Assembly (NCBI GenBank): GCA_014377015.1
Contig: JACMQL010000028.1
Coordinates: 1 to 64,000, forward strand
Direction: 5' to 3'
DNA length: 64,000 bases
Source of the DNA: Actinomycetota bacterium
GTDB lineage: Bacteria > Actinomycetota > Actinomycetes > Nanopelagicales > Nanopelagicaceae
The notes beneath the pieces are model-generated. The model was given only the letters and a program-made list of their open reading frames with translations. It had not been told where the DNA came from and made no database searches. Positions 833 to 55,742 of this stretch are shown piece by piece. Position 1 is the first letter of the stretch, and the number at the start of each line of letters is the position of its first letter. The position numbers and the translations under genes are program-made.

Positions 833-905
833 GCGCCCGTAGCTCAACGGATAGAGCATCTGACTTCGGATCAGAGGGTTGGGGGTTCGAATCCCTTCGG
901 GCGCA
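833..905 (+). tRNA. tRNA-Arg(TCG)
   Basis: A complete cloverleaf: acceptor GCGCCCG (833-839) pairs with CGGGCGC (898-904), discriminator A905. The anticodon stem TCTGA/TCAGA encloses loop CTTCGGA, giving anticodon TCG (reads CGA). The T loop is TTCGAAT. CCA is not encoded. Its 3' end, 16 nt at 891-906, recurs exactly at 1941-1956 and with one change at 3101-3116, which marks it as the anchor of the accessory segments that follow. Confidence 0.95.
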
Positions 906-906
906 C

Positions 907-947
907 AAATTCGACTCCCGTCGCCTTTCACTTCGGGGGTCGAATTT
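907..947 (+). terminator. Hairpin terminator after tRNA-Arg
   Basis: AAATTCGACTCCC (907-919) pairs with GGGGGTCGAATTT (935-947) in a 13-bp stem with one G-T pair, followed by CTTTGTCT. It directly follows the tRNA and probably ends its transcript. Confidence 0.75.
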
Positions 948-1000
948 CTTTGTCTCGTCAGTTCGTTGTGCATTTTTGGCGGATCATCTAAACAAGAGCA

Positions 1001-1885
1001 GTGGAATTAAACAGCGAAGGATTTAGACCTCTAAAATTGCGCCGTGATGATGTCTGTTCACGCTGTGGTGACGTACTTTTAGTAGGTACGAAAGCACTTT
1101 GGAATCCGAGTAAAAGGCTTGTTATGTGCGTAAAGCCTCATTCGGAAGGTGTCCTGTTGAATGATCAGGATGTGCACGAGGTGATTGGTGATGACTCAGT
1201 TCCCGAAGAGGTCGCTTACGACAAAGGTAAGGCCGGCGGATCCGCGATGGCTAAGCATGATCATCTTGTAGAAGCACGTGAAAAACGAGTCATGGCGAGA
1301 GCGCCGAAGATTGGAAAACTTTTGCTTGCCGTTTACGGCGATCCACAAAGCACCAAGGCGTGGGAAACCGGGGCGGAAGGCGAGATCGCGATTGGACACC
1401 TTTTAGATTCGCTGGCAGAGAAGTACGGATTCCTGGTTATCCACGATCGCCTTATTCCAAGGTCCAAAGCGAACATTGACCATATAGCTATTACACAATC
1501 CGGAGTGATCGTTATTGATGCCAAGAATTACCAGGGAACCGTACAAGTTAAAGATCAGAGTGGTTTTTTCTCTACACCGGATCTGCAACTTTGGGTTGGG
1601 CGGCGTAACTGCATGAAGTTGGTTACTGGAATGAAGCATCAAGTCGAGGTCGTAAAGGCGATTTTGAGCAAATATGACGTCGATGTGCCGGTGGTCGGAG
1701 TTCTAGCTTTTTATGCGGCCAGTTGGGGCACCTATAAATTTATGAGGGTGCAGGAGGAAGTTGACGGCGTGTTAATTAATTCAAAAGGCATCGAACCGAT
1801 TGTCGCTCGGCAAGGTGCTCTATGCGCCGAGCAAATTAAACATGTAACGCGAATACTGGCTACTCAACTTAAGTCGGCCGTTTAG
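1001..1885 (+). CDS. NERD-domain nuclease-like protein with N-terminal cysteine cluster
   Basis: Residues about 118-280 carry the hallmarks of a nuclease-related domain (NERD), a restriction-endonuclease-like fold: GAEGE at 124-128, D160-H161, then a beta strand ending D173-A-K175 (VIDAKNY), which corresponds to the D-x-K catalytic pattern. The N-terminus has C19-x2-C22 and C43, possibly part of a small zinc ribbon. No signal peptide is seen, so it should be cytoplasmic. The start is GTG; only a weak purine stretch (AAGAG) lies upstream. It is the sole gene between tRNA-Arg and the first duplicate of the tRNA 3' end, so it looks like mobile cargo. A role in DNA processing or defence is plausible from the fold but is inference. 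Confidence 0.75.
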   Translation: MELNSEGFRPLKLRRDDVCSRCGDVLLVGTKALWNPSKRLVMCVKPHSEGVLLNDQDVHEVIGDDSVPEEVAYDKGKAGGSAMAKHDHLVEAREKRVMARAPKIGKLLLAVYGDPQSTKAWETGAEGEIAIGHLLDSLAEKYGFLVIHDRLIPRSKANIDHIAITQSGVIVIDAKNYQGTVQVKDQSGFFSTPDLQLWVGRRNCMKLVTGMKHQVEVVKAILSKYDVDVPVVGVLAFYAASWGTYKFMRVQEEVDGVLINSKGIEPIVARQGALCAEQIKHVTRILATQLKSAV

Positions 1886-1925
1886 TCGTAGACAGTTGCT
1901 TTGGAGCAAGTTCAATACTTGTTTT

Positions 1926-1957
1926 CCAGTGGCCAGTTTCATCCCTTCGGGCGCACT
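1926..1957 (+). repeat. Duplicate of tRNA-Arg 3' end (att-like remnant 1)
   Basis: ATCCCTTCGGGCGCAC at 1941-1956 is identical to tRNA-Arg 891-906. The 15-18 nt before it (CCAGTGGCCAGTTTC) are not tRNA-derived but recur before the second remnant at 3087. Duplicated tRNA 3' ends are the usual scar of site-specific integration at a tRNA gene. Confidence 0.85.
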
Positions 1958-1988
1958 CGTAGCATCAAACTTGATAAAACGTTAGTAC

Positions 1989-3053
1989 TTATGAGATGTA
2001 ACCCCACTTTGTCCCGATGGCTACCGCCGCTAGACCTTCAACGAAATCTCCTGCGGTGTCGAACTGAGGTTTAATCACAGTCTTTCCTTTTCTATCAATG
2101 TATCCCCATTTTGTTCCGTTTCCAACACGAGCAAAACCATTTACAAAAGGCATCGCATATTTATAGTGTGTGCGGAGTAGGTAGGTTCCTTTCTTATCAA
2201 TGAACGCCGCACTCTTTCCATTGTTCACTACGGCTAGCCCCTTAATAAAATCTTCGCCAAAGCGAGATTGAACTTTAATGACAAACTTTCCAGTCTTGTC
2301 TATGTAACCCCATTCTGTTCCGTTATTTGATACGGCCGCTAGCCCATCAGCGAAACCACCAGCAAAATCACAACAGTGGCTAGCTCCCGATATATACTTG
2401 AATTGAGGTTTGATAACGTACTTTCCTTTTACATCAATGAATCCCCACTTTGTTCCATCCTCGACAGCCGCGAGGCCATCATGGAATCTTCCTGCTCCAT
2501 CAAATTTTGGACTGGCTAAATATTTCCCTTTAGTGTCAACGAAACCATACTTCTGTCCAACTCTTACGGCTGCGAACCCACCAGAGAAATTATCTGCCCC
2601 GTCAAATTGAAGAGGAATTACATACTTTCCAGACTCGTCAATGAAGCCGTAAAGTTTGCCATTTCCAGCGATGGCTAAGCCCTCAGAGAAATTTCCAGCC
2701 GTTCTAAATTTCTGACTAACTTGAAACTTACCTTTCACATCAATATATCCCCAGAGCAGGCTTCCGCTTTTGAAGGCCGGGGCAAGGCCAATTCCCTGTA
2801 CGAAATCACTAGCTAAACCGAGATTAGGAGCTATCACGTATTTTCCAGACTTATTAATGAAGCCCCAACCCGTTTTAGTGTCTACTAACGCGACTCCATT
2901 CACAAAAGTACCCGCAAAATTGAATAGTGGGCTAATCGCATATTTTCCAGTCGGGTGAAACTCTTTTGGAACTGAGGCAGACGAAACACTGCAAGAAGCA
3001 ATCAAAACGGCCAATATCGGAACCGACCAGAGGAACTGACGATGCAGCTTCAT
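1989..3053 (-). CDS. WG-repeat lipoprotein
   Basis: A predicted exported lipoprotein: a basic N-terminus, a hydrophobic stretch, then lipobox IASC with the cysteine at about residue 21. The rest consists of about eight WG-type repeats with the core W-G-[FY]-I-D-x-x-G-K-[YF]-x-x-x-P-x-F, about 40 residues apart, typical of WG_beta_rep (KWG) proteins, thought to act as surface binding or structural modules. The chain stops inside a repeat (KWGYIS-stop), about 30 bp from the tRNA-Arg remnant at 1926-1957, as if the 3' end were trimmed at the segment boundary. It runs against the tRNA and the NERD gene and is the only gene of its segment. Confidence 0.8.
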   Translation of the reverse strand: MKLHRQFLWSVPILAVLIASCSVSSASVPKEFHPTGKYAISPLFNFAGTFVNGVALVDTKTGWGFINKSGKYVIAPNLGLASDFVQGIGLAPAFKSGSLLWGYIDVKGKFQVSQKFRTAGNFSEGLAIAGNGKLYGFIDESGKYVIPLQFDGADNFSGGFAAVRVGQKYGFVDTKGKYLASPKFDGAGRFHDGLAAVEDGTKWGFIDVKGKYVIKPQFKYISGASHCCDFAGGFADGLAAVSNNGTEWGYIDKTGKFVIKVQSRFGEDFIKGLAVVNNGKSAAFIDKKGTYLLRTHYKYAMPFVNGFARVGNGTKWGYIDRKGKTVIKPQFDTAGDFVEGLAAVAIGTKWGYIS

Positions 3054-3086
3054 TTGTTGATCCTAGAGCAGGCATACCTTCGATTC

Positions 3087-3117
3087 CCAGTGCCAGTTTC
3101 ATCTCTTCGGGCGCACT
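3087..3117 (+). repeat. Duplicate of tRNA-Arg 3' end (att-like remnant 2)
   Basis: ATCTCTTCGGGCGCAC at 3101-3116 matches tRNA-Arg 891-906 with one substitution. The preceding CCAGTGCCAGTTTC matches the flank of remnant 1 with one base missing. Together the two remnants align over about 31 nt, so they are closer to each other than to the tRNA gene. Confidence 0.85.
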
Positions 3118-6682: not shown

Positions 6683-7624
6683 ATGAGTATTAAATCGTTG
6701 CCATCTCGCGCAGATAAGAAGAAGACCGTCGTTTCTCGTTTCACTGATTTATTTGAGGGTAAATACTTCGCTTGGTTGTTGTTGGCACCAAGTTTGGCGA
6801 TGATTGCCTTCTTTATTTTCTATCCCTTATATAGAGGTTTAACGCTCGCTTTTACGCATACAATTTTGATCGAAAGTCCAGACTCAACCTTTGTAGGTCT
6901 AGATAATTTCCGACAACTCCTTAAAGATCCTCTTTTCTGGACCTCCACGCGGCACACCTTAATTTATTTGGTTATTGGGTTGATTTCCCAAGTAGCAGTA
7001 GGTCTCTTTGCCGCCGTATTGCTTAGTCGCGAGCGACGAATGATTTGGCTCCTTCGTATCATTCTGGTTATTCCATGGTTTGTCCCACCGGTCGTGACTG
7101 CTTATATGTGGCGCTTCATGCTGGATCCAGACTTTGGAATCATGGTGAAGTTGGCTCATTACATTGGTTTAGATCTCGGAGGAGCGGGAATCTGGGGAGA
7201 TCCGGACAAGACAATTTACGGAATTTTGTTCGTTGAATTATGGCGTTCCTATCCGTTCTTCATGCTCTTCTTCTTGGCGGGAATTCAGGGAATTCCAAAG
7301 GATATGCGCGAGTCCACATCTGTTGATGGCGCTTCGGCGCTCCAGCATTTCCGTTTCATCATCTTGCCGTTGATTAAGCCAGTTATGTTCATCTCCTCTC
7401 TTTTAGGTGCTATTCACCTTATTAATTCTCCGACCTTGATTTTGTTGATGTCTAATGGCGGTCCGGGCGATAGCACTTTGGTGCTGCCGCTGTACGCCTT
7501 CCGTAAGGCCTTCCAGAACTTTGATTTCGGTTACGCCTCGACAATTTCAGTAGCCGTACTAGTAGCCATTGCAGGATTTGCCATCGTATATGTTCGCTTT
7601 ATCGGATTTGGAAAAGAGGATTGA
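6683..7624 (+). CDS. Carbohydrate ABC transporter permease, MalF/UgpA type
   Basis: A six-helix inner-membrane permease of the CUT1 carbohydrate uptake class. The first helix lies at about residues 30-50 and the EAA loop reads ESTSVDGASALQHF-RFIILPLIKP near residue 215, which docks to the ATPase. It overlaps the next permease by one base (TGATG at 7622-7626), so translation is coupled. The binding protein follows at 8635. No ATPase gene belongs to this operon, so it probably shares a general MsmK-type ATPase encoded elsewhere. The substrate is not evident, but the neighbouring catabolic genes suggest a sugar or sugar acid. Confidence 0.9.
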   Translation: MSIKSLPSRADKKKTVVSRFTDLFEGKYFAWLLLAPSLAMIAFFIFYPLYRGLTLAFTHTILIESPDSTFVGLDNFRQLLKDPLFWTSTRHTLIYLVIGLISQVAVGLFAAVLLSRERRMIWLLRIILVIPWFVPPVVTAYMWRFMLDPDFGIMVKLAHYIGLDLGGAGIWGDPDKTIYGILFVELWRSYPFFMLFFLAGIQGIPKDMRESTSVDGASALQHFRFIILPLIKPVMFISSLLGAIHLINSPTLILLMSNGGPGDSTLVLPLYAFRKAFQNFDFGYASTISVAVLVAIAGFAIVYVRFIGFGKED

Positions 7625-48921: not shown

Positions 48922-49079
48922 AAATTCTCCCGATAACTGTCAATGATGAATGGCACTGACTCACTCGGTATATCTTAGATTGTCTCGTGCTCGGAGTGGG
49001 TATTAGCGCTGACGCCTATCCGACCTATCCGAACTTGCGGCCAACGGAGCGAATTTCGGCCCGGGGGTATGCTCTTTCC

Positions 49080-50498
49080 ATGCGTACACAGCTATTTATT
49101 GATGGAAAATGGATCGACGGCAATGCGACCATGCCGGTCTATGACCCAAGTGACGGCTCGATTATTGCCGAGGTCGCTACTGCCGGTGAAGACGAATGCG
49201 AAGCTGCCCTCGCGGCGGCAACGGCTGCTGCGGAAGATTGGGCTAAAACAGCGCCGCGTGTTCGTGGAGAGATTTTACGAAAAGCTTTCGAATTGATGAT
49301 TGCTGAAAGCGACGTTTTGGCCACCTTGATCTCCCGCGAAAACGGAAAAGTCTTCTCGGATGCAAAAGGCGAGGTTGCGTACGCTGCAGAATTCTTCCGC
49401 TGGTTTGCCGAGGAAGCAGTTCGCGTGCCGGGCGACTTTAGACATTCTCCAAGTGGAGACAAACGAATTCTTGTGACACATCAACCAATCGGCGTCTCAT
49501 TACTTATTACCCCATGGAATTTTCCAGCTGGAATGGCAACGCGGAAAATCGGCCCTGCTCTCGCGGCGGGTTGCACCGTGATTCTAAAGCCAGCAGGAGA
49601 AACGCCTCTGACCGCTCTCGCGATCGTAGATATTTTGCACCGTGCGGGCGTGCCAAAGGGAGTGGTAAATGTAATTCTGCCAAATCCGGTCGGGCCGTTA
49701 ATTAGCAAGATTTTGCACGACCCACGAGTTCGTAATCTTTCATTTACTGGATCTACAGAAGTCGGCCGCGTACTTTTGCGCGAAGCCTCGGATCGCGTTA
49801 TTCGCTGCTCAATGGAACTTGGTGGCAATGCTCCATTCGTAGTCCTCGACGATGCCGATGTTCAGGCAGCAGTACAAGGTCTGATGATTGCGAAAATGCG
49901 AAATGGGGGTGCCGCTTGTACGGCGGCCAATCGAATTTACGTGCAACGTCCGATCGCCGACCAGTTCATCACTGAATTCACGCAAGCAATGGCGGCACTT
50001 GTTGTCGGTCCGGGGCTTGTAGAGGGCGTAAATCTCGGTGCGAGTGTTTCGCTGAAGGAAAGAAACAAAATCGCCGACCTTGTTGATACCGCTGTCAGTG
50101 AAGGTGGAAAGATTACGACTGGCGGCACAACTCCAGATGGCCCAGGAGCTTTCTATCCGGCGACAGTATTAACTGTCGAACGATCTAACTCCATTCTGAG
50201 CCATGAAGTATTCGGACCCGTTGCTCCGATCGTCATTTTCGACACCGACGAAGAAGCAGTCGCGCTAGCCAACGACACTGATTTCGGACTTATAAGTTAC
50301 ATCTATTCAGGCGACCTCAGTCGCGGAATTCGAATGGCAGAAGCGATTGAATCTGGCATGGTTGCAATCAATCGTGGCGTAATTTCCGATCCAGCGGCGC
50401 CGTTTGGTGGAGTCAAGCAGAGTGGCCTAGGACGCGAAGGCGGATTTGACGGAATTCATGAGTTTCTTGAAACCAAGTTCATCGGAGTAACCATCTAG
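49080..50498 (+). CDS. gabD: Succinate-semialdehyde dehydrogenase-type aldehyde dehydrogenase
   Basis: A 472-residue aldehyde dehydrogenase with PWNFP (145-149), NAD-loop FTGSTEVG (222-229), E246 in MELGGNAPF and the catalytic C280 in GGAACTAANR. These and KQSGLGREGG near the end place it among NAD(P)-dependent succinate semialdehyde dehydrogenases; close relatives oxidise glutarate semialdehyde or glycolaldehyde. I chose ATG at 49080, where homology starts, over an upstream GTG frame from 48987. No GABA transaminase is adjacent. Confidence 0.85.
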   Translation: MRTQLFIDGKWIDGNATMPVYDPSDGSIIAEVATAGEDECEAALAAATAAAEDWAKTAPRVRGEILRKAFELMIAESDVLATLISRENGKVFSDAKGEVAYAAEFFRWFAEEAVRVPGDFRHSPSGDKRILVTHQPIGVSLLITPWNFPAGMATRKIGPALAAGCTVILKPAGETPLTALAIVDILHRAGVPKGVVNVILPNPVGPLISKILHDPRVRNLSFTGSTEVGRVLLREASDRVIRCSMELGGNAPFVVLDDADVQAAVQGLMIAKMRNGGAACTAANRIYVQRPIADQFITEFTQAMAALVVGPGLVEGVNLGASVSLKERNKIADLVDTAVSEGGKITTGGTTPDGPGAFYPATVLTVERSNSILSHEVFGPVAPIVIFDTDEEAVALANDTDFGLISYIYSGDLSRGIRMAEAIESGMVAINRGVISDPAAPFGGVKQSGLGREGGFDGIHEFLETKFIGVTI

Positions 50499-50575
50499 CC
50501 ACGAGCAATTTGCGACGCAAATCATGCAGTGGCACCTTGCTCTTTCAGTCGCGAAATATCGCATCAACCCCACGC

Positions 50576-50601
50576 AGCTCTCATTCAACTTAATGAGAGC
50601 T
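50576..50601 (+). terminator. Terminator after gabD
   Basis: AGCTCTCATT (50576-50585) pairs perfectly with AATGAGAGCT (50592-50601) around a 6-nt loop. The following TCTGCCTGTTCTCT has a weak T tract. The remainder of the 122-bp gap holds nothing else I can identify. Confidence 0.65.
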
Positions 50602-50620
50602 TCTGCCTGTTCTCTGTATC

Positions 50621-50977
50621 TTACATAACTGAAATTGACGAATTTTGAGTAATCATGCCCGCTTCACTTTGGGCAAAGAGCTCAATTAACATTTCAATTT
50701 TTTTGGACCTAGAAGTCGGAATTGGTGCCTGAATGGTCACACGCGCTTCTAAATACAAGGTATGAACGGATTTAGAGGTATATAGACCATCTTGAATTGA
50801 ATACTCAATTGAGTATTCAGCCTTATTAATTGATAGAAACTCAGTTGATAAGAATTCTGACGCTTGCTTTTCATAGTGCGAGCGTTCATCACGCATTAAT
50901 CTGAAGCAAGTTGTCAATAAATTTCGTTCCATGCGCTTTTGATCGGGAGTCAGAAAATCTGGATCTTCAATGTCCAT
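50621..50977 (-). CDS. Hypothetical protein, accessory
   Basis: I do not recognise this 118-residue protein. It starts with an acidic, Met/Glu-rich helix (PDQKRMERNLLTTCFRLMRDERSHYEKQA) and continues with short beta-like segments. No signal peptide or membrane helix is seen, so it is probably cytoplasmic. It starts 14 bp after the end of the four-cysteine protein gene on the same strand and, with it, forms the outermost part of the tRNA-Ser-linked array. Composition (AT-rich, Ser/Ile/Thr-rich) differs from the housekeeping genes beside it. Confidence 0.5.
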   Translation of the reverse strand: MDIEDPDFLTPDQKRMERNLLTTCFRLMRDERSHYEKQASEFLSTEFLSINKAEYSIEYSIQDGLYTSKSVHTLYLEARVTIQAPIPTSRSKKIEMLIELFAQSEAGMITQNSSISVM

Positions 50978-50991
50978 ATTTGTAGGTTATC

Positions 50992-51465
50992 TCAAGTGCC
51001 GCACTCAAGGGGGATAATTTTGGTGGAGAGCACATGCCGGGCAAATTGCCACTTTCCAGCGATGAATGCTCTTGAGTACGCCACACCGTAATAACTCGTT
51101 GAAACTTTATCTATACAGACTCGAAAAGTTTTAAAGTTGTTGACTTGAGACTTTGGAAGTGTTGTGCCGGAACTTAAAACAACGCTTTTCCAGACAAAAT
51201 GATTACCTAAAGTGCCGGTTTTCCAAATTTCAACCGTTAGGGTGACATTGCTTTGCGGAACGTTACATATTGAAGAGGCATTTACTTTCACTGCCCTAAT
51301 TCGAGACTTCTCGAAAAGATTCGTCGAAATGTGCGCGATGCCAATTTGGCTTCGGCACGGAGGTTTTGGTTCTGTAACTTTGAATTGATCCCCCGCAATG
51401 GCGGAGGATGAGAGGTCCATTTTTATTGAAGAAGGCACTACGGTTGATAAATGAAACGCTTCCAA
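50992..51465 (-). CDS. Four-cysteine protein, 5' end disrupted at a tRNA-Ser remnant
   Basis: From residue ~35 on, this protein parallels the 53,716 protein: a first Cys (PPCRSQIGIAHIS), then a block K-x-N-x-x-x-x-C-N-V-P-Q shared by both (KVNASSICNVPQ here, KLNITTKCNVPQ there), a third Cys (FRVCIDK) and a C-terminal Cys (LECGT). Four spaced cysteines suggest two disulfides and export. But no signal peptide or ribosome binding site is visible: the start region (TTG 51465 or ATG 51420) is replaced by a copy of the tRNA-Ser 3' end (51397-51415). The gene therefore looks truncated at a recombination junction and may be inactive. Confidence 0.5.
   Translation of the reverse strand: MEAFHLSTVVPSSIKMDLSSSAIAGDQFKVTEPKPPCRSQIGIAHISTNLFEKSRIRAVKVNASSICNVPQSNVTLTVEIWKTGTLGNHFVWKSVVLSSGTTLPKSQVNNFKTFRVCIDKVSTSYYGVAYSRAFIAGKWQFARHVLSTKIIPLECGT
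51397..51415 (-). repeat. Remnant of tRNA-Ser(GGA) 3' end (outer copy)
   Basis: AATGGCGGAGGATGAG at 51397-51412 is identical to 53774-53789, the 3' end of the functional tRNA-Ser plus its CCA and two flanking bases. It sits inside the 5' part of the four-cysteine gene, 1,221 bp from the next copy at 52618. Confidence 0.8.
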
Positions 51466-52575
51466 TCAGCTTTTATTTTTGTCACTTCGATAGCGCTCAT
51501 TCTCTGCGTACCAAGTGCAAGCGCCGCGACCAAAATAGGTATGGCTTGCAAAAAGGTTGGCCAAAGTGCAAAAGATTCTGGAAAAAAATATCAGTGCGTA
51601 AAATCTGGAAAAAAGTTAATTTGGTTAGAAAAAATATCGACTGGAGATTCAAATCCGCAAAATAAGCTTGATCCAAAGGTGCAAAGTTTCGCTTGGCCAA
51701 GTCCTGACGCTAAATACATCACAGCAGTACCGGTCGACTTAGATCAGATCAATAGTATTTCAAAATATGCAAGTTGCTCAGGTCACAATCGTGATGGATA
51801 CACTTTTGACAAGATTTTAGTCACCAATCTTTCACTTAAACATTATTGGTACCCGATAACGACATTCCAAGGAACATTAGACAAAGTTAAAGTGTTTGCA
51901 CCTTTTAATGGAACAGTTTCTACTATTCAACTTGAAGCAGACAAGGGGGGCTTAGGTCGTCCAAAGAACGGCAACGGCTTAGGCCTTTCCACTTCAGAAG
52001 ATAAGAATGTCATTTTTTCATTCGGTCATATTTATTTTTCAAAAAAATTAAAAATTGGAGATTCTGTAAAGGCAGGAGAGTTGTTGGGTTATGCAGCATT
52101 GTCAGACCCGAATTTTGATTTTGATATCGATTTGGAAGGAAAGACGCACGCACCCAATGGTGCTGAAATACTGGGAAGCATTTTTGATCATATGACGAAG
52201 AAAGTATTAGATACCTTCGTGGCACATTCGATCACTCCAGAAGAGATGAAGATTCCACTTGCCCAGCGTCAATCAAATCCCTGTGATTACAACGCAGGGA
52301 AAGGGCGTACTACTTCGGATTGGGTAGCGCTGAAAGGCGAAAAATTCGCTACTACAGAAATTTCAACACAAAATAAGTTGAGTAATTCAAACAGCGGCGT
52401 GAAACCAGCCGAAACTCAACGACCAATTGCTTCTACGGAATCAGGTAATCCAAATTTCCAACAGTTAGGTACCCTCTGTGATCCAACAAAAGGAGCGAGT
52501 GGGAAAACTTCTGATGGAAAAGACTTATTGTGCAACGCCGCAAGCGACGGAAAGAGCTATTGGCAGATAAAATAA
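51451..52575 (+). CDS. Secreted degenerate M23-like (LytM fold) protein
   Basis: A signal peptide (residues 1-25, ending PSASA) is followed by a Lys-rich cysteine motif (GMACKKVGQSA...YQCVKSGKKLIW), a LytM-like barrel (about 145-235: KVKVFAPFNGTVSTI, NGNGLGLSTSEDKNVIFSFGHIYF, IGDSVKAGELLGYAA) and a C-terminal second copy of the Cys motif (GTLCDPTKGAS...DLLCNAASDGKSYW). The usual final H-x-H is replaced by F-D-F-D, so peptidase activity is unlikely; binding to peptidoglycan or a surface glycan is more plausible. It is the only gene of its segment of the tRNA-Ser array and is opposite to the tRNA. Confidence 0.65.
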   Translation: MKRFQSAFIFVTSIALILCVPSASAATKIGMACKKVGQSAKDSGKKYQCVKSGKKLIWLEKISTGDSNPQNKLDPKVQSFAWPSPDAKYITAVPVDLDQINSISKYASCSGHNRDGYTFDKILVTNLSLKHYWYPITTFQGTLDKVKVFAPFNGTVSTIQLEADKGGLGRPKNGNGLGLSTSEDKNVIFSFGHIYFSKKLKIGDSVKAGELLGYAALSDPNFDFDIDLEGKTHAPNGAEILGSIFDHMTKKVLDTFVAHSITPEEMKIPLAQRQSNPCDYNAGKGRTTSDWVALKGEKFATTEISTQNKLSNSNSGVKPAETQRPIASTESGNPNFQQLGTLCDPTKGASGKTSDGKDLLCNAASDGKSYWQIK

Positions 52576-52600
52576 CTAACTAGTCAACATGCCTGATGTA

Positions 52601-52611
52601 TCCAAGGCGAG
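52601..52611 (-). repeat. Fragment of tRNA-Ser(GGA) 5' flank
   Basis: TCCAAGGCGAG repeats exactly 53861-53871, which is the first three bases of tRNA-Ser(GGA) plus its upstream flank. Here it lies 6 nt beyond the 3' end of the decayed tRNA copy, as expected if a tandem tRNA duplicate was cut. Confidence 0.6.
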
Positions 52612-52617
52612 TGAAGT

Positions 52618-52705
52618 TGGCGGAGCGTGAGGGATTTGAACCCTCTGTAGGTTGCCCTACACACGCTTTCCAAGCTTGCGCATTTGACCGCTATTCAAAT
52701 TTACC
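52618..52705 (-). pseudogene. Decayed full-length copy of tRNA-Ser(GGA)
   Basis: The 88-nt segment aligns without gaps to the functional tRNA-Ser(GGA) at 53776-53863. The T arm, variable arm and anticodon (GGA) are kept, but the acceptor no longer pairs (GGTAAAT against ACGCTCC) and an anticodon-stem pair is lost. Mismatches cluster in the 5' half, while the 3' half is nearly intact, the pattern expected when only the 3' part is needed as a recombination site. Confidence 0.85.
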
Positions 52706-52713
52706 TAAATCTT

Positions 52714-53214
52714 TCACCTACCTTTGAGTTTATTAAGTAATTCGCGATCGTTTGTTTTGATTCGATTTACGAGTCCAAGCAGTTTGCCTTTGCCATCAGA
52801 ATAGTAATTTAGATCGTAATAAGGATATACATTGATACCAAATCCGCTATCGGACTGTGGATTCAAGCCGGGTAAAGGAAAGTTACGTATAACGTCGACA
52901 TCACTTTGTGCAAAAAATTTCTTTAGTCTGATGATGTCATAAAACTTAATCCCGGTCAGTTTTATTTCACGTATGACGGGAGTAAATTCGTCAGAATCCA
53001 ATCGGCGTGTGGAGTAATTGACTAATCCGTCTTTGACCAAATAGTAAATCTGACCGTTTGCGATTGTTTTATTTAGCAATCCATTTGTTACTAGTAAATT
53101 CGCTTGGGATTTATAATTGCCATTGTTACTTCTTAAAAAGTACTTATAAAGAGCCCTGCGATTCTCCTGGCTCAGCCAATCGCCAAGAGTCAGACACTCT
53201 TCTAAAAAGTTCAT
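52714..53214 (-). CDS. Hypothetical protein, accessory
   Basis: I do not recognise this 166-residue protein. It is rich in Tyr, Asn, Lys and Leu. The first half is helical and charged (ENRRALYKYFLRSNNGNYKSQANLL, then VTNGLLNKTIANGQIYYLVKDGLV, which could be a winged-helix-like unit); the second half is beta-rich with many Tyr (FGINVYPYYDLNYYSDGKGK). No signal peptide. It starts 4 bp after the stop of the 53,716 gene on the same strand, so the two form an operon within the segment between the two tRNA-Ser copies. Confidence 0.55.
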   Translation of the reverse strand: MNFLEECLTLGDWLSQENRRALYKYFLRSNNGNYKSQANLLVTNGLLNKTIANGQIYYLVKDGLVNYSTRRLDSDEFTPVIREIKLTGIKFYDIIRLKKFFAQSDVDVIRNFPLPGLNPQSDSGFGINVYPYYDLNYYSDGKGKLLGLVNRIKTNDRELLNKLKGR

Positions 53215-53218
53215 GTGC

Positions 53219-53716
53219 TCATTTTGCCACGATCTTGCAGGAAACCGCTACGAATTTTCCTGAAGACCCTTGGATTGGGTAATCCTGACCATGCTTTAAG
53301 TGAATGTATCCCTTAGCTTCTCCGCTGTATGCAACGTTTGAACCCTTGACACAGGTTGCGTATAATTCCTCGAAAATGACAACGTGCGGCGACTTAGTTT
53401 TTGAGTATCTCCGATCAGATTCAAATTTATGTGCGGTCGCCTGTCTATTATTTTCTATTTTTTGGATACTTGAAGTAATTTCCGTGTATCTCTGAGGCAC
53501 ATTGCACTTTGTAGTTATGTTGAGTTTTATAGCATCTATCTTCTTATATTCATACAAATAGGAGGAGTAATGGGGTCTTTCAATATTTATACTGCACTTA
53601 GGCTCAGGGCTATTCCCAAGTCCAAAGACCAGATATTGCGCAGCTAATAAACCTATGACGAACAGACTTGGAATTCTTGGTTGGAGGGGAAAAGGTCTTG
53701 GAATTGTGAGTGGCAT
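53219..53716 (-). CDS. Membrane-anchored four-cysteine protein
   Basis: A 165-residue protein with one hydrophobic segment near the N-terminus (about 17-33, SLFVIGLLAAQYLVFGL), either an anchor or a signal. The exported part has four cysteines (EPKCSIN, KCNVPQ, ATCVKG, VSCKI) matching those of the 51,465 protein in order and rough spacing, and shares the CNVPQ block. I know no family for this pair. Its ATG lies 59 bp from the 3' end of tRNA-Ser(GGA), so it is the tRNA-proximal gene of the array, followed by the 53,214 gene. Confidence 0.6.
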   Translation of the reverse strand: MPLTIPRPFPLQPRIPSLFVIGLLAAQYLVFGLGNSPEPKCSINIERPHYSSYLYEYKKIDAIKLNITTKCNVPQRYTEITSSIQKIENNRQATAHKFESDRRYSKTKSPHVVIFEELYATCVKGSNVAYSGEAKGYIHLKHGQDYPIQGSSGKFVAVSCKIVAK

Positions 53717-53775
53717 GCCCCAAAGTACTTTTAGACATCAAGACATGAGTTGAGTTATCCACAAAGGTAAAAAAA

Positions 53776-53863
53776 TGGCGGAGGATGAGGGATTTGAACC
53801 CTCGGTAGGTTGCCCTACACACGCTTTCCAAGCGTGCGCACTCGGCCGCTATGCGAATCCTCC
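53776..53863 (-). tRNA. tRNA-Ser(GGA)
   Basis: On the minus strand: acceptor GGAGGAT pairs with ATCCTCC, discriminator G and encoded CCA (53778-53776). Anticodon stem CACGC/GCGTG with loop TTGGAAA gives GGA (reads UCC/UCU). A long variable arm marks a class II tRNA. It is the anchor of the accessory segments to its left; the position next to the SRP RNA is typical of actinobacteria. Confidence 0.95.
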
Positions 53864-53905
53864 AAGGCGAGAACTCTATCGGTGTGCAAACTATGATGAG
53901 CACCA

Positions 53906-53993
53906 GATCCCTCGTGCGGCGCTATCGTGCTGAACTCCCCCAGGGCCGGAAGGCAGCAAGGGTAGGTGCGCTCTAGTGGGTGCACGAGGGGTC
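53906..53993 (+). ncRNA. ffs: Small (4.5S-type) signal recognition particle RNA
   Basis: The conserved tetraloop core GGGCCGGAAGGCAGCAAGGG (about 53943-53962) with symmetric and asymmetric loops is the Ffh-binding domain. Ends pair as CCCTCGTGC (53909-53917) with GCACGAGGG (53982-53990), extended by GAT/GTC. It lies between tRNA-Ser and dnaX, the usual order in actinobacteria. Confidence 0.9.
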
Positions 53994-54020
53994 CTTCAAG
54001 TAGGAAAGGAGCGTGATGCC

Positions 54021-55742
54021 ATGTCGCTAGCGCTCTATCGCAAATATCGCCCATCACTTTTCTTGGATGTGATCGGCCAGGAGCATGTGACGGTTCCACT
54101 TTTTAACGCACTTTCGTCCGGACGAATCCATCATGCCTATCTATTCTCTGGACCTCGCGGCTGCGGAAAAACTTCTAGCGCTCGCATCATGGCGCGCAGT
54201 CTTAATTGCGTAAACGGACCAACTCCGACCCCTTGTGGTGTTTGCCAATCCTGCACAGACTTAGTCGCAAATGGACCGGGTTCACTTGATGTCATCGAAC
54301 TAGATGCCGCAACTCATGGACTCGTAGATGATGCGCGAGATTTACGCGACAAAGCATTCTTCGCACCGGTGCAAAGTAAATACAAGATTTACATCATCGA
54401 TGAGGCGCACCAGCTCGGACCGGGTGCGGCAAATGCGCTATTGAAAGTTGTGGAAGAACCGCCGGCACATGTGATTTTTATTTTTGCCACGACAGAGCCA
54501 GAGAAATTGATTTCTACGATTCGTTCTAGAACTCATCACTACCCATTCCGTCTAGTACCCCCCGGAATCTTGGCGGCACATCTTGAAAAAGTTTGCAACG
54601 CAGAAGGCGTAAAAGTTGCCAAAGGTGTGATCCCGCTGGTGGTCCGTGCGAGCGGCGGCTCTGTTCGTGATGCACTTTCAGTGCTGGGCCAACTTCTTGC
54701 TGGTGCGGGAGCAGAAGGCGTCAGTTACGATATTGCAGTTCAATTGTTGGGATTCACTGACAGCGCTCTTCTTGATGATGCAATCGATGCACTTGCAGCA
54801 GGGGATGCCGCGACACTCTTCAAAAGTATTGACAGGGTTATCGAATCTGGCCACGACCCACGCCGTTTTGCGGCAGATTTGTTAGAACGCCTGCGCGACC
54901 TCATTATCGTGGATGCGCTTCCCGATGGTGGTGCGCAGGCGATTTTGCGTGAAGTTTCCGATGATCAACTCGAGCGGATGCGCAATCAAGCACAACGTAT
55001 CGGGACCGCTGGATTATCGCGCTCGGCAGATATCGCGGCAGAGGGTCTGACACAGATGCGTGGTGCTACCGCGCCGCGTCTTATGTTGGAACTTATTTGC
55101 GGACGAATGCTTCTTCCGGTGGGTGATACATCCCAACGCGGATTAATGGCACGAGTAGAAAGACTCGAACGCGCAGAAAATCTTGCACCAATGACATCGC
55201 GAACGCCAAGTGCTGCCGATCTGCCCTCGGTAGTTTCTACCCCAGCGGTCGACGTTGATAAAGATGTCCCAGTTCGCGAATCAACGCTGGTGCAGCCTGC
55301 TGCTTCACGCGTTGCTCCCCAAACACCGACTGTTGCAAAACCAAGTGGACCCTTCGATGTCGCCGCACTTCGGAGGCTTTGGCCCGATGTAATCGAGGAT
55401 GTAAAGAAGCGCCGTCGCCTGACCTGGTCGTTGCTCAGCACCAGCGCACAGGTCCTTGCTTTAGATGATTCGATGATCACGATTGCAATCGTCAATGCAG
55501 GCGCCCGCGATTCATTCCTTCGATCTCAAAGTGATGAGATTTTGCGCCAATCCTTCATTGATGTTGTCGGCATCGATCGCAAAATCGAGGTAGTTGTAGA
55601 TCCCTCGATTAATCCGAATACGCCACAAGCGCGCGCGGTGCGGGTTGATGAATCACCTAACGATGCCGATCAACTCTCTGGTCCTGCCTTATTGGCTAGC
55701 GCGCTCGGCGCGCAGTTCATCAGCGAGACCCCTCGCCCATGA
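54021..55742 (+). CDS. dnaX: DNA polymerase III subunits gamma/tau
   Basis: Clamp-loader ATPase. Walker [10 protein letters not shown] (about 43-51), zinc cysteines 63, 72, 75 and 78 ([18 protein letters not shown]), DEAH near 129 and the sensor region [18 protein letters not shown] are visible. The C-terminal ~200 residues carry the tau-type extension. I chose ATG at 54021 with a strong ribosome binding site (AGGAAAGGAG) over an upstream frame that overlaps the SRP RNA. Its end overlaps recR by 4 bp. I saw no A6G-type slippery site for a gamma form. Confidence 0.95.

Follow-up and report, generated by a model that had tools for sequence, protein, structure and literature searches.

A putative gene-cassette array at the 3′ end of tRNA-Ser(GGA) in a Nanopelagicaceae genome, with a conserved cassette-end tag and a candidate helper integrase

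The window analysed here is a stretch of 64,000 nucleotides (contig JACMQL010000028.1, positions 1 to 64,000) from the Nanopelagicaceae assembly GCA_014377015.1. Within it, copies of a tRNA-Ser(GGA) gene split a 3.3-kb strip of ~40% GC lying between gabD and the block of signal recognition particle (SRP) RNA and dnaX, flanks in which GC is ~52%. We consider it probable, from sequence comparison, that this locus is an array of gene cassettes at the 3′ end of tRNA-Ser(GGA), with one site per cassette and an integrase acting in trans. A cassette would consist of one to a few genes and a single recombination site, formed by a conserved tag of ~45-80 nt and then the last ~18 nt of the tRNA (the core). 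The partner of this tag-core site, in recombination by a tyrosine integrase supplied in trans, would be either the tRNA gene or the core belonging to a cassette already in place. Because integration would restore the tRNA and leave a core copy on the far side, repeated insertions would produce stacked cassettes. The proposal draws on exact breakpoints, a conserved tag, unrelated cargo, sharing across genera and an integrase with an inverted tag, all of them read from the sequences.

The comparison drew on a sample of 296 genomes, labelled G000 (the window's own genome) upward, of which 21 belong to the window's genus (g1); a search at order level gave the same 296. The tRNA-Ser(GGA)-SRP RNA-dnaX block is present in most of these 21 genomes, and 3′-end copies of the tRNA also adjoin it in G006, G020, G015 and G001. 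Within the genus, the gabD stop and the tRNA are separated by ~50 bp (G002), 0.5-1.1 kb (G010, G011, G017), 3.1-4.0 kb (G020, G000, G001), 8.4 kb (G015) or 13.8 kb (G013); the last, at locus L037 (G013:C1:506557-526000), is the largest interval seen in the genus.

The filled site of G001 can be set against the empty site of G005. Here, G001 has 1,411 bp extra, the flanks are collinear and 97.5% identical on both sides, and the alignment blocks overlap in G005 by 20 nt, exactly the duplicated core. What comes after the distal core in G001 is the flank seen after the tRNA in G005. In G001 and G029 a cassette encoding a 374-aa protein starts immediately downstream of the functional tRNA; in the window this cassette starts immediately after a dead tRNA copy, and in G204 immediately after a tag-core. 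Between G278 and G041, which belong to different genera, the block of high identity includes only the tRNA, the cassette and the tag. The first-pass annotation had described an array in which tRNA copies mark off the segments, and predicted that breakpoints in relatives would fall at these copies; in all three comparisons they do. As in a tRNA-cassette island, there is a fixed and conserved tRNA target, the cassette ends carry direct repeats of the tRNA 3′ end, and cassettes are gained and lost between relatives.

Five distal core copies in G020, G015 and G001 have a common sequence just 5′ of the core. A pattern search detected this tag, CGGGGAATTACCCAGGNTGAAGAGGATAAATCCCTCATCCTCCGC, as a conserved cassette end in 27 of the 296 genomes, representing 4 genera, while the reversed control pattern gave 0 matches. 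The consensus of the 27 aligned cassette ends is TGCTAARTTGCCTTTTATGACCCGTTTACCTAAAAAACGGGGAATTACCCAGGNTGAAGAGGATAAATCCCTCATCCTCCGC, and a few of them lack the upstream hairpin part. Conservation of the tag stops at the tRNA 3′ end, and the tRNA-Ser core follows directly in 28 of 30 distinct tags. In the two exceptions, G152 and G156, the same tag is joined to another core and to different cargo away from any tRNA, close to a gene that looks whiB-like by eye. This speaks for a tag that is part of the element and against a tRNA relic. The two non-tRNA tag sites, L144 and L145 (G156:C1:603431 and G152:C16:296136), come from two species. A decayed tRNA as the origin of the tag was rejected, since the tag is conserved across genera and is present with another core at a non-tRNA site.

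The hairpin stem of the tag, CCCGTTT/AAACGGG, pairs in 90.5% of cells and shows compensatory changes at 2 of its 7 pairs; slid controls gave far lower values, and the five changed cells are thin evidence. In the IMG/VR database the tag had 0 matches, and the tRNA core was found in 4 contigs, in three of them inside a called tRNA-Ser and in one without a called tRNA. The clade allele CCCCTATCC is present in the tRNA of G015, and CCCTCATCC in its distal tagged copies; in G001 both core copies carry CCCCTATCC. Because the tRNA and the distal copies of G015 differ in allele, the simplest reading is that strand exchange would lie 3′ of this difference, within ATCCTCCGC.

A second and shorter type of segment end, GAGGAACCCCTGCC...GGTTSGGACATCCTCCGC, adjoins the same tRNA core in L146 (reverse strand, ~6744-6850), in L152 (~2050-2130), and after the tRNA in G013 and G015. 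There is also a unit of ~112 bp, ending in the attachment core, that contains a tRNA-Ser with a CGA anticodon and the acceptor and T arms of tRNA-Ser(GGA). In several genomes this unit adjoins tRNA-Ser(GGA) or sits within arrays (L213, 822-934; L148, 7404-7517; L152, 2767-2850).

The 19 bounded tag-ended cassettes are 641-6,555 bp long, with a median of 1,300 bp, and 18 of them are under 4 kb. Their cargo, named by eye and not by hidden Markov models, includes secreted proteins that share an N-terminal domain, a Doc-like toxin and its partner, a histidine kinase together with a response regulator, a GNAT-like and a quinone-oxidoreductase-like enzyme, and many unknowns. These genes are mutually unrelated, one tag being common to unrelated cargo, and their orientation within arrays is mixed. 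Inspection of the open reading frames (ORFs) revealed no recognisable recombinase in the cassettes and no integration or transfer genes in those bounded by attachment (att) sites, which is the state of cis-mobilizable elements (CIMEs).

Some cassettes are shared between species and genera, at 84-94% identity against 67-79% for the backbone. A cassette common to G278 (genus g12) and G041 (g2) is 88.5% identical with flanks at 72-76%, one common to G155 and G156 reaches 94% on a backbone of 70-79%, and one common to the window (G000, g1) and G204 (g12) reaches 84% as against 67% for gabD. Such sharing could also be produced by homologous recombination between the gabD and dnaX flanks after natural DNA uptake, with the tRNA copies as relics of rare old insertions. 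The conserved flanks on both sides in many genomes and the arrays without a recognised recombinase would suit this explanation. We find it quite improbable, because identity drops sharply at the tRNA and the core and does not decay into the flanks (88.5% inside and 72-76% outside in G278/G041), because one tag is joined to unrelated cargo, and because the filled and empty sites correspond exactly.

Which recombinase could serve the cassettes? The window's genome encodes two PF00589 proteins, XerC/XerD-like by their length and their presence throughout the genus, and the PF00589 genes of the genus lie away from cassettes. The single-contig genomes G278 and G156, both with tagged cassettes, have only two XerC/XerD-like PF00589 proteins each; a resolvase-type recombinase was found once in G156 and not at all in G278. 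In the genome of G204 a tyrosine integrase (PF00589, 7.8e-19) lies 0.6 kb after tRNA-Ser(GGA) and keeps, as judged by eye, the R, HxxR, H and Y motifs of the family. An integrase 90% identical to it follows a tRNA-Ser(GGA)/tRNA-Ser(CGA)-like pair in G225. A 186-aa MraZ/AbrB-like protein is encoded next to the integrase.

The tRNA-side end of the integrase element carries GTAATTCCCC preceded by TGG, which is the reverse complement of the tag. The DNA immediately following the tRNA, CCTGGGTAATTCCCC in G204 and CGTGGGTAATTCCCC in G225, corresponds in reverse complement to the tag's GGGGAATTACCCAGG, with one mismatch in G225. Recombinase-less cassettes of G181 and G193 have the same element end at 93% and 87.5% over 40-44 nt including the core. 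The integrase-bearing element and two cassettes share one end in this way, and no transfer genes were seen in the contig parts covered. Because the tRNA-side end of the element carries the inverted repeat of the tag, the integrase of the G204/G225 type is likely the helper of the cassettes; inverted sites at both ends would be what a shared recombinase needs. The integrase had no match in IMG/VR or among INPHARED phages, and among plasmids it had no close match, only one partial match of 29%. We infer that a G204-type integrase moves the cassettes, that excision and integration continue, and that cassettes have a route into cells.

Movement by XerC/XerD, the sole tyrosine recombinases in some array-bearing genomes, would agree with the lack of any other such enzyme in G278 and G156. 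Judged from genomic context, the dedicated integrase with an inverted tag at the same tRNA makes it very improbable. The presence of an integrase-bearing element at the site could also point to tandem relics of integrative elements (integrative and conjugative elements, ICEs; integrative and mobilizable elements, IMEs; or prophages), each once equipped with an integrase and later shrunk by deletion. Such CIME accretion is documented (PMC5704250), and the window array does look decayed. This origin seems unlikely, since tag-intact cassettes are small, gene-dense and common to several genera in intact form, and inspection by eye recognised in them neither a relict integrase nor a gene for transfer.

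Several facts weigh against cassettes served by a helper in trans. Their mobility is deduced, and neither a circular form nor activity was observed. The integrase was found in only 2 of the 296 genomes, in both of which contig ends cut the element, so that its far end, where a tag and core would be expected, is not covered. Most cassettes lack an inverted tag at their tRNA-side end. Finally, nothing in the window's own array matches the tag pattern, even with three mismatches allowed.

In the window, the boundaries are worn: no tag is left in the array, and its third segment is truncated (Table 1). ARAGORN and Rfam (53.8 bits) agree with the first-pass annotation on the functional tRNA. Its decayed full-length copy was also described correctly: all 88 nt align, 76 of them identical with 12 mismatches. 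With 4 of its 7 acceptor pairs broken and no call from either program, this copy is almost certainly dead. The reported 16-nt copy of the 3′ end at 51397 is present, although the true tRNA end covers only 14 nt (51399-51412) and two matching flank bases make up the 16 nt (51397-51412). One specific 14-mer is expected by chance ~2e-5 times in 3.3 kb, and G204 has a core copy near the equivalent junction. The distances of 1,158 and 1,221 bp between the three copies are correct, and the unusual composition was borne out, with a GC content of 38-44% in windows from 50500 to 53750 and 50-55% outside, where the housekeeping flanks lie on both sides.

Table 1. Features of the tRNA-Ser(GGA) locus in the window
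Feature	Position	Strand	Basis
tRNA-Ser(GGA), functional; attachment site, 3′ end is the repeated core	53776..53863	-	ARAGORN and Rfam
Putative secreted protein of 165 aa (family A, CNVPQ motif), segment 1	53219..53716	-	ORF; without Pfam match
166-aa protein, partner of the 53219..53716 gene, segment 1	52714..53214	-	ORF
Dead full-length tRNA-Ser(GGA) copy, segment 1/2 boundary	52618..52705	-	Alignment to functional tRNA; breakpoint in relatives
374-aa putative secreted protein, cassette 2 cargo	51451..52575	+	Relatives in cassettes of other genomes
tRNA 3′-end copy, distal boundary of cassette 2	51397..51412	-	Exact match
5′-truncated family B CNVPQ gene, segment 3	50992..51398	-	BLASTP to 53219-53716
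118-aa gene, family B partner, segment 3	50621..50977	-	ORF
gabD-type aldehyde dehydrogenase, conserved left flank	48987..50498	+	PF00171 (Aldedh) 4.9e-149
SRP RNA, conserved right flank, then dnaX	53903..53999	+	RF00169 64.8 bits
dnaX	53976-55742		ORF; follows SRP RNA

The five accessory proteins of the strip, described at first as unrecognised, indeed had no significant match in Pfam, PADLOC or PHROGs. The 374-aa protein has at most a weak Peptidase_M23-like match (E=0.048, not significant) and a poor AlphaFold model (mean pLDDT 39), and its relatives in the cassettes of G204, G001 and G029 are 65-81% identical. The accessory strip reaches further towards gabD, with the 118-aa gene. The listed ORF 50992-51465 reads across the short core copy, and its product resembles that of the family A gene (40% over 50 aa, 1e-10, BLASTP). 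Relatives of the family A gene were found again at the same locus in other genomes, and those of its 166-aa partner adjoin family A in L143, L151, L154, L152 and L199. Family B has relatives in L152, L157 and L199, where relatives of the 118-aa gene adjoin it. The families of both gene pairs (165+166 aa and 157+118 aa) recur at the locus, and their order differs between the window and G204.

The dead full-length tRNA copy and the repeated gene family could be taken as signs that the tRNA region was simply duplicated in tandem and then decayed, without any mobility. We regard this as extremely improbable, because gene content differs between segments, the two gene pairs of the window are distantly or not detectably alike, single segments are missing or swapped in relatives, and the G001/G005 pair contradicts it. 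The window array is instead an old example that has lost its tags and contains a dead tRNA copy and a truncated gene. Judged by its position, its core copies and the cassette that it has in common with tagged arrays, it belongs to the cassette system.

Another array in the window (833-3116) consists of tRNA-Arg(TCG) and two cassettes with a conserved end motif of their own, GATTCCCAGTGCCCAGTTTCATCCCTTCGGGCGCAC. This motif occurs in 5 genomes, G000 (contig C39), G006, G011, G013 (9 hits) and G061, at or near tRNA-Arg(ACG/TCG) and tRNA-Val genes, and the cassette end was absent from IMG/VR. In G006 (L238, G006:C14, 320-4132) about five motif-ended cassettes of 0.4-1.0 kb follow tRNA-Arg(ACG), and their cargo includes, by eye, GNAT-like, NUDIX-like and NERD-like genes. 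A 397-aa tyrosine integrase (L095, 6166-7507; G009:C30) ends 75 bp after tRNA-Arg(TCG), the tRNA of this array, and may be the helper of the second system, but its surroundings did not show an inverted motif. The tRNA-Arg/Val system supports the general cassette reading as an independent example.

The two systems may belong to a lineage-wide, integron-like capture of genes, with a tRNA as receptor, a shared pool of one-gene cassettes with dedicated sites, a rare helper in trans and at least two independent versions (tRNA-Ser and tRNA-Arg/Val); on this wider idea our confidence is evenly divided. In the available portions of the literature on additive islands of plankton, it appears open by what route these islands, which lack their own integrase, acquire single genes. 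The shared cassette end and the candidate integrase make this question directly testable. The tag can serve as a search key for listing the cassette pool of this small-genome lineage, and the system may yield a compact tRNA-targeted integration tool.

How does this arrangement compare with known systems? Integrons are arrays of small cassettes, each with a conserved site, inserted at a fixed receptor site by a tyrosine recombinase. Our arrays are alike in logic, with small cassettes, one conserved site each and one fixed receptor. In contrast to integrons, the receptor is a tRNA gene and gene orientation is mixed. The attC sites of integrons have paired R/L boxes that fold as a single strand; the tag has a 7-bp hairpin with 2 covarying pairs. 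IntI next to attI was not found, G278 and G156 holding only the XerC/XerD-like PF00589 proteins.

In CIME accretion, att-bounded segments that lack genes for integration and transfer pile up at a single site (PMC5704250). The present segments are likewise att-bounded, integrase-less and stacked, but they look like one family with a dedicated site. Further traits of CIMEs are descent from ICEs or IMEs by decay and mobilisation in cis with a neighbouring element. In Dehalococcoides, ssrA-specific islands lie in tandem after an RNA gene, with 20-bp 3′-end repeats and a conserved 15-bp motif just upstream of the repeat, and about half of them lack integration genes (PMC3146451). Their architecture, including the short motif upstream of the 3′-end repeat, is the same as here; they differ in the tmRNA target, the island-borne serine recombinase, the reductive dehalogenase cargo and the motif sequence (PMC3146451).

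Tycheposons, as summarised in the available part of PMC10872708, are elements of 4-200 kb with the recombinase inside. Like our cassettes they are tRNA-bounded cargo elements of small-genome plankton associated with a tyrosine recombinase; the cassettes here are mostly 0.6-3.7 kb and recombinase-less. The closest descriptions concern the additive flexible genomic islands of Alteromonas, Actinomarinales and Methylopumilus (fGI-2), which are tRNA-targeted cassettes (PMC4119200, PMC7771536, PMC10872708). In the accessible sections of these papers they have the same conserved tRNA target, accumulating cassettes, direct repeats of the tRNA 3′ end and many cargo genes of unknown function. The same sections describe no cassette-end tag and no cognate integrase, both of which we propose here, together with cassettes of mostly ~1 kb that extend across genera. 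Cassette islands at tRNA genes with 3′-end repeats already go under the name of additive flexible genomic islands; the novel details are the tag common to four genera, the candidate helper with an inverted tag, and the second system at tRNA-Arg/Val.

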